DNA from: Herbidospora sakaeratensis
Lineage (GTDB): Bacteria; Actinomycetota; Actinomycetes; Streptosporangiales; Streptosporangiaceae
Direction of reading: 5' to 3'
Assembly: GCF_001570525.1 (NCBI RefSeq)
Contig: NZ_BBXC01000015.1
Location: 229,811-293,810, forward strand
DNA: 64,000 bases
Shown: one piece after another, positions 33,908 to 34,098 of the stretch
Numbering within the stretch: position 1 is the first letter of the stretch
Layout: every line of letters starts with the position of its first letter
Made by a program: the position numbers and the translations under genes
The notes under the pieces: generated by a model
Databases searched by the model: none
What the model saw: the letters and a program-made list of their open reading frames with translations, nothing else
What the model was told of the DNA's origin: nothing

Positions 33908-34000
33908 TTCGAGGGCTCCTCGTAGGTGGTCACATCACAGGACGTGGCCGACGCGCATGACTCGCACCGCGACGAGGGAGCCGGCCTGTTACAGGCCCTC
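33908..34000 (-). promoter_or_regulatory. leuA leader with alternative pairings around the ribosome-binding site
   Basis: CGAGGAGCC (complement of 33914-33922), containing the leuA Shine-Dalgarno, can pair with GGCTCCCTCG (complement of 33973-33982) with one bulge. That strand can instead pair with GAGGGCC at the end of the leader-peptide frame (complement of 33994-34000), and GGCCTG-TAA-CAGGCC is a perfect hairpin at the leader stop codon. The two pairings exclude each other, as expected for translation-coupled attenuation. Confidence 0.55.
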
Positions 34001-34036
34001 GACGCGGCGGCTAAGGAGGAGCAGCCCGCGCAGCAT
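33989..34036 (-). CDS. leuL: leuA leader peptide (leucine attenuator)
   Basis: A 15-codon frame, MLRGLLLLSRRVEGL, with four consecutive leucine codons (CTG CTC CTC CTT) at 34013-34024, ending 81 bases before leuA. A stretch of leucine codons in a short leader before leuA is the recognised signature of leucine attenuation, known in actinobacteria. TAGCCT (complement of 34044-34049) lies 7 bases upstream of the ATG, so the leader is probably translated from a leaderless transcript. Low charged tRNA-Leu would stall the ribosome here and free the leuA ribosome-binding site. The frame is too short to be a chance find in view of its content and position. Confidence 0.8.
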   Translation of the reverse strand: MLRGLLLLSRRVEGL

Positions 34037-34098
34037 AGGTCCGAGGCTACCAGAGCCCCCGCGGTGGCCTTCCCGAGAGGACCAATAGAGTGGGGATC

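Follow-up and report, generated by a model that had tools for sequence, protein, structure and literature searches.

We lean towards reading the 129-nt leader upstream of leuA in Herbidospora sakaeratensis as a LEU-element type of translation attenuator that responds to leucine, in which two separate leader strands are able to pair with the Shine-Dalgarno (SD) sequence of leuA. The leader itself is real and conserved, and a regulatory role for it is very likely. Its open reading frame (ORF), its main hairpin (arm2:arm3), its pseudoknot, and the pairing of the SD with both the Leu codon run and region 3 are each supported by comparison among relatives. The window (the whole stretch of 64,000 nt that was analysed) carries leader and gene on the minus strand, with the following features, each given with its basis:

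34044-34049, minus strand: -10 box TAGCCT (TAnnnT), 7 nt upstream of the leader ATG; sequence
33989-34036, minus strand: leader peptide ORF MLRGLLLLSRRVEGL, stop TAA; sequence
34013-34024, minus strand: Leu codon run CTG CTC CTC CTT, sensor codons and putative anti-SD strand 1; codon bias and pairing tests
33996-34007, minus strand: arm2 CCGCGTCGAGGG, 5' strand of the main hairpin, within the leader ORF; sequence and covariation
33980-33986, minus strand: GGCCGGC, 5' strand of the pseudoknot helix; own-versus-swapped test
33973-33982, minus strand: region 3, GGCTCCCTCG, putative anti-SD strand 2; own-versus-swapped test
33967-33978, minus strand: arm3 CCCTCGTCGCGG, 3' strand of the main hairpin; sequence and own-versus-swapped test
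33946-33952, minus strand: GTCGGCC, 3' strand of the pseudoknot helix; sequence and own-versus-swapped test
33914-33922, minus strand: leuA SD plus flank CGAGGAGCC; sequence
32192-33907, minus strand: leuA, 2-isopropylmalate synthase, 571 aa, ATG at 33907; ORF, name by homology

The original prediction had placed a leucine leader ahead of leuA, and the minus strand at 34036-33989 indeed encodes such a peptide (ATG CTG CGC GGG CTG CTC CTC CTT AGC CGC CGC GTC GAG GGC CTG TAA), with six Leu codons in total, four of them consecutive. Between the leader stop and the leuA start lie 81 nt, and the duplex of the leuA SD with the 16S tail amounts to -7.9 kcal/mol. Homologues of leuA at E<=1e-100 were present in 36 of 41 genomes. 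No Rfam family covered the leader, the single match at E<=5 being mir-7964 with 17.1 bits against a cut-off of 80. Two observations were made elsewhere in the window: an Rfam match to 5_ureB_sRNA on the minus strand at 43844-44135 (76.5 bits), possibly just ureB-like coding sequence, and, on the plus strand at 34384-35337 and within 35115-36275, two adjoining ORFs for similar acetyltransferase-like proteins, by eye an apparent tandem duplication.

The leader had also been described as leaderless-looking. The position of the TAGCCT box suggests that transcription starts at the leader ATG itself, which would give a leaderless transcript. A TAnnnT box starting 11-15 nt upstream of a candidate leader start was found in 86 of 95 representative leaders, against a control of 0.2% that stands for one random coding position, while leaders could offer several candidate starts. 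The leaderless layout is thus well founded on comparison across leaders; a scan of 33800-34150 gave no full sigma-70-type promoter.

All of the pairings named in the original prediction are able to form, as judged from the window sequence and duplex energies. Region 3 pairs with the SD (GGCTCCCTCG with CGAGGAGCC, one bulged C, -16.8 kcal/mol), and the proposed duplex of GAGGGCC with region 3 is the end of a longer stem between arm2 and arm3 (CCGCGTCGAGGG with CCCTCGTCGCGG, -21.5 kcal/mol), which contains one U.U mismatch found in the window's cluster alone among the 95 representatives. As had been claimed, these two pairings of region 3 are mutually exclusive, because both use CCCTCG. GCTCCTC within the Leu run and GAGGAGC within the leuA SD are complementary. 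A pseudoknot helix (GGCCGGC with GTCGGCC, -15.2 kcal/mol) was absent from the original prediction, as was most of the main hairpin.

The comparative sample was drawn from 253 loci, of which 218 had a leuA match and 211 of these a hairpin by a rule of at least 9 of 11 pairs; the seven loci failing the hairpin rule were L028, L084, L127, L146, L241, L242, and L247. The 201 unique elements formed 101 clusters at 85% leuA identity, and the exclusion of six representatives with less than 58% identity to the window's leuA, considered distant paralogues, left 95 representatives. In the helix test, the duplex energy with the own partner was compared with that of partners swapped between genomes, using 2000 permutations across these 95. 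Several choices may bias the sample: start codons were picked partly by SD strength, leader frames by most Leu codons, and loci with a model from leaders carrying the Leu run. The clades referred to below are identity groups of the leuA N terminus, not a tree.

Comparison in relatives had been put forward as a check, and across the 95 representatives it supported both anti-SD pairings. The strongest signals came from arm2:arm3 (own -22.1 versus swapped -18.9, z -12.8) and the pseudoknot (-13.3 versus -11.3, z -10.0), followed by region3:SD (-12.3 versus -11.0, z -6.0) and Leu run:SD (-11.4 versus -10.2, z -5.7). Controls gave z values of -1.4 for reversed region 3, -0.7 for the reversed Leu run, -0.5 and -2.3 for region 3 and the Leu run, respectively, with leuA codons 1-7, -2.2 for the loop with a farther downstream stretch, and +0.4 for the Leu run with the pseudoknot strand. 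When a 10-nt window was slid along the leader, two peaks of matching to the own SD emerged, one at the Leu run reaching z -4.3 and one at region 3 reaching z -5.8. All other windows, except those flanking region 3, ranged from -1.8 to +2.3; for some windows downstream of arm3, swapped SDs matched better than the own one (z up to +2.3). Among elements preselected for at least 9 of 11 arm2:arm3 pairs, changes on both sides were seen at 7 of the 11 pairs in the 95 representatives. Exchanges between region 3 and the SD are illustrated by GGTCTCCTCG/CGAGGAGACC in L072, GGTCACCCTCG/CGAGAGTGACC in L016, and GCTCCCTCG/CGAGGGAGC in L019, the window counterpart being GGCTCCCTCG/CGAGGAGCC. Permutation within 30 clades left region3:SD significant (best 10-nt window, 0/2000); Leu run:SD was significant within 20 clades (12/2000) and not within 30 (183/2000), and its signal may be partly due to shared ancestry.

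An element of this kind has been described. The LEU element, reported upstream of leuA in most Actinobacteria, combines a Leu leader with a pseudoknot and with a base stem formed by the Leu run and the SD (Seliverstov, Putzer, Gelfand, and Lyubetsky, 2005; PMC1262725). Judged by its sequence features, the window leader fits this description and is of the kind already published: a leader ORF with a Leu run lies directly upstream of leuA, the base stem can form (with the z value given above, yet without significance within 30 clades), and a two-helix pseudoknot lies inside it, its helices matched to the description and not to the figures. Relative to the text of PMC1262725, the present analysis adds region3:SD as a second anti-SD pairing, the own-partner tests in 95 representatives, the codon statistics, and the relatives before leuB, leuC, and LeuA_dimer genes.

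The sensor codons themselves are biased. Among the 327 Leu codons in the runs of the 95 representatives, CTC and CTT occur 130 times each, CTG 60 times, and others 7 times, compared with 84/3029 for CTT and 1882/3029 for CTG in the leuA coding sequence of the same loci. The last Leu codon of the run is CTT in 83 of 95, CTC in 12, and CTG in none. SD pairing was ruled out as the cause of the final CTT, its U being unpaired or opposite G in 58 of the 83. The sensor codons therefore look selected as codons, and the bias favours translation of the Leu run as the sensor. CTC and CTT are read by one shared tRNA, and a rare Leu codon is known to matter in the leu leader of E. coli.

Seliverstov et al. 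favoured a protein-binding site, in which an SD-opening protein, proposed to be a DEAD-box helicase, binds the element and leader translation is not the sensor. This proposal was based on phylogenetic profiles and mutant data: leuA leader mutants of S. coelicolor had "some effect" that did not fit classical attenuation, and Leu-codon mutations were concluded to be without influence on regulation (PMC1262725). A binding site does not predict that 194 of 195 runs contain 3-5 Leu codons (the frame being chosen for most Leu codons), nor that leuB leaders, described below, keep the structure with Val/Ile/Leu codons, often rare synonyms; we regard it as very improbable. For the switch model, the published S. 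coelicolor mutants are equivocal.

For translation attenuation with two anti-SD strands, the following course of events is proposed. Without a ribosome, the SD would be bound either by the Leu run, in a pairing external to the arm2:arm3 hairpin, or by region 3, and leuA would be off. When leucine is plentiful, ribosomes passing through arm2 would free region 3 to take the SD, and a ribosome at the stop codon would leave the Leu run free to pair with it, leuA being off in both cases. Under leucine shortage, stalling at the Leu codons would place a ribosome over the first anti-SD strand, and the uncovered arm2 could hold region 3 in the hairpin and pseudoknot; with both anti-SD strands occupied, the SD would open and leuA would be translated. 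The likely stall points are the codons at the end of the run, which are almost always CTT or CTC. The step in which stalling on the Leu codons frees the SD is inferred.

Geometry tells the models apart. Measured from the start of arm2, the leader stop is at +13, +16, or +19 in 187 of 195 elements, and in 180 of 195 it precedes arm3 by 10-17 nt. By this geometry, a ribosome on the run covers the run and leaves arm2 able to trap region 3; one within arm2 covers arm2 and the end of the run but exposes region 3; and one at the stop covers arm2 together with part of region 3 and leaves the Leu run exposed. The switch model of the original prediction is retained in part. Its leucine leader, its leaderless layout, and its exclusive pairings are supported, as are, by comparison, both anti-SD pairings, but the OFF state it assumed, with region 3 on the SD as ribosomes pass freely, does not suit a ribosome at the stop: such a ribosome would lie over part of region 3 too, with the Leu run behind it left free to pair with the SD.

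Folding under a ribosome mask, a method that does not include the pseudoknot, was applied to 93 of the 95 elements and followed this order for the helices. The predicted probability of Leu run:SD was 0.37 without a ribosome and about 0 on stalling; that of the hairpin was 0.69-0.71 when 6-15 nt separated the A site from the last Leu codon downstream and, with the longer footprint, fell to 0.11 at that codon; and region3:SD rose to 0.37 as the ribosome entered arm2. A shorter footprint, at six positions, gave the same order of helices. SD freedom averaged 0.26 without a ribosome, 0.34-0.36 when the A site lay on the run (93 elements in both cases), and 0.29 at the stop codon (95 elements; stall versus stop, paired test p 0.0005). 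Of the 95 elements, 53 had a freer SD on stalling than at the stop, and 23 a less free one. On average, the predicted release of the SD on stalling is thus modest.

The claim that stalling favours the hairpin over the SD pairing fared less well for the window, where little release of the SD is predicted in its own fold. SD freedom on the four run codons was 0.12, 0.21, 0.00, and 0.00, against 0.24 at the stop; the model therefore predicts no induction for the window's own sequence. The U.U mismatch in the window's hairpin may contribute to this lack of predicted release. Region3:SD dominates at most ribosome positions in the window and reaches 0.88 without a ribosome. The latter value speaks for a simple two-state switch as in the original prediction, in which region 3 alone changes partner (leader end or SD), the run acts as sensor, and its pairing with the SD is incidental. 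Under clade control, too, region3:SD holds up better than Leu run:SD. However, the Leu run likewise tracks its own SD (z -5.7; 12/2000 within 20 clades), and by geometry a ribosome at the stop covers arm2 and part of region 3 alike, and we consider a switch of region 3 alone improbable.

Classical attenuators of the E. coli leu/trp type have regulatory leader codons and alternative hairpins, with a rare Leu codon in the leu leader, and end in an intrinsic terminator. The window leader differs in the last respect, for no intrinsic terminator-like site, the mark of a classical transcription attenuator before its gene, was found in 33800-34150. Sequestration of the SD by a leader strand, the mark of a translation attenuator, is indicated by comparison and folding, with two strands tracking the SD. 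The same leader and hairpins could instead control termination, either Rho-dependent or at an unseen terminator, the SD pairing being secondary. For such transcription attenuation speak short RNAs of 85, 65, and 45 nt that map to the leuA leader of M. tuberculosis and were read as an attenuator (PMC3526491), the listing of the C. glutamicum leuA leader among attenuator transcripts (PMC4046766), both according to the accessible parts of these papers, and, by eye, the leaders of family f13, which are followed by a terminator-like hairpin and a T run before another leuA type. Against it, the available text of PMC8079986 reports a leaderless 15-residue leader, leuL1 (MRFGLLLLSCRGEGL), before leuA of S. 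lividans without a typical terminator, in the same layout as the window leader, and control of termination would leave unexplained why two separate strands track the SD. This alternative is considered unlikely. As far as the accessible portions of the three papers go, no SD pairing model is given there for these leuA leaders. In mycobacteria, cysteine-responsive leaderless short ORFs acting by translation attenuation were reported (Canestrari et al., 2020, as cited in the consulted excerpts of PMC9094748 and PMC13236596); to the extent of these excerpts they are likewise leaderless, with codons sensing an amino acid, and differ in having Cys codons and cys genes.

The element is widespread in the class. 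It was found in 29 of 30 leuA loci fetched, the exception, L028, beginning 67 nt from a contig end, and a covariance model built from 24 of those 29 leuA leaders had matches at E<=0.01 in 375 of 394 class genomes. Twelve of the 19 genomes missed by the model have a leuA homologue at E<=1e-20. One of these loci lies at a contig edge; among the other 11, a diverged leader was seen by eye in five (L297, L303, L304, and less surely L305 and L306), no leader was seen by eye in four (L298-L301), and two (L307 and L308, family f13) carry a short Leu leader and a terminator-like hairpin before a different leuA type. These last leaders, MTNLLLT in L307 and MKHLLLIESARH in L308, each contain CTG CTC CTT, followed by the hairpin and a T run (by eye), and are classical-looking attenuators. 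Across the phylum, 13 of 149 genomes were matched at E<=0.0001, 12 of them the window's own or of the same class and one outside it (G514, before a leuA by eye); this search used strict filters and the class share of the other 136 genomes is incomplete, so that it says little on absence. For the second leuA of the window's genome (54% identical, G000:C7), inspection by eye showed no leader and the model gave no match at E<=0.1.

Relatives of the element precede other leucine genes. Secondary model matches and their companions gave 62 places, of which 27 lie before leuA at >=50% identity, one before another leuA type (L146; Pfam), 12 before leuB, and five before leuC (PF00330). L095 and L097 have leuB-type leaders with no leuB found in the stretch scanned. 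In L125 the element precedes a stand-alone LeuA_dimer gene at 510-902 (PF08502, above cut-off), and in L138 a similar small gene with weaker evidence. Stand-alone genes below the Pfam cut-off that likewise resemble just the allosteric LeuA_dimer domain of LeuA also stand behind elements in L293 (433-876) and L294 (424-879), the latter preceded by the leader MHRALAVVATRSGV and the former by a Val-rich frame in which no start codon was found. Thirteen of the 62 places, weak model matches (E about 0.0004 to 0.007), were rejected as chance, lying inside genes or having no leader; L141, a true-looking leuB leader, scored just 0.002. Because leuA leaders are matched by the leuB model R2 as well, its 89 of 98 genomes are not a count of leuB leaders.

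The window's own genome contains such a relative (L062:1501-1594; G000:C22:26562-26655), with the leader MRRVLVITCRGGV and its Val, Leu, and Ile codons before a small ORF and leuB. In 14 leuB-type leaders, one of which (L120) is misframed in the counts, GTA accounts for 12 of the 22 Val codons, ATT for 7 of the 13 Ile codons, and CTT for 9 of the 22 Leu codons, compared with 3.1%, 7.5%, and 2.8%, respectively, in coding sequence. A small ORF of about 30-50 aa, whose C-terminal motif resembles ALQEAMDRRDNGG, lies between leader and leuB in 15 of 21 leuB-type loci by pattern (L062 at 1614-1721, L095, L097, L100, L101, L108, L120, L128, L132, L256, L284, and L288-L291); seven of these ORFs were compared with NCBIfam and none reached a cut-off. 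L286 (G115:C9:168600-171200) is element-shaped, with a leader frame ...TSTCRDGA containing Thr and Ser codons before a MYEMYP small ORF and a ROK-family regulator, and possibly represents an element redirected to a different amino acid. In the literature searched, outside which most subscription papers lie, no leuB or leuC leaders of such design were reported for Actinobacteria.

Based on these relatives, we tentatively suggest, with some doubt, that the leader may belong to a re-codable family of actinobacterial attenuators. Its members would share one chassis, comprising a hairpin that starts inside the leader ORF, a pseudoknot, and two anti-SD strands, which would open the start site only when ribosomes stall on the sensor codons and which would be re-aimed by rare-codon swaps: Leu before leuA and leuC, Val/Ile/Leu before leuB, and Val-rich before the stand-alone LeuA_dimer gene.

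The control of leuA in actinomycetes has been an open question since the contradictory leader mutants were obtained, and the dual role of the Leu run offers a testable reason. If the run is both sensor and anti-SD strand, its replacement would remove repression and sensing together; replacement of the Leu codons is therefore a confounded test, because the run is itself one of the two anti-SD strands, and this would explain the "paradoxical" mutants of S. coelicolor. The re-codable family, if real, predicts that leuB, leuC, and a gene for a LeuA regulatory domain are under the same device with different codons, which would be of relevance to leucine and valine production strains and to the annotation of short ORFs.
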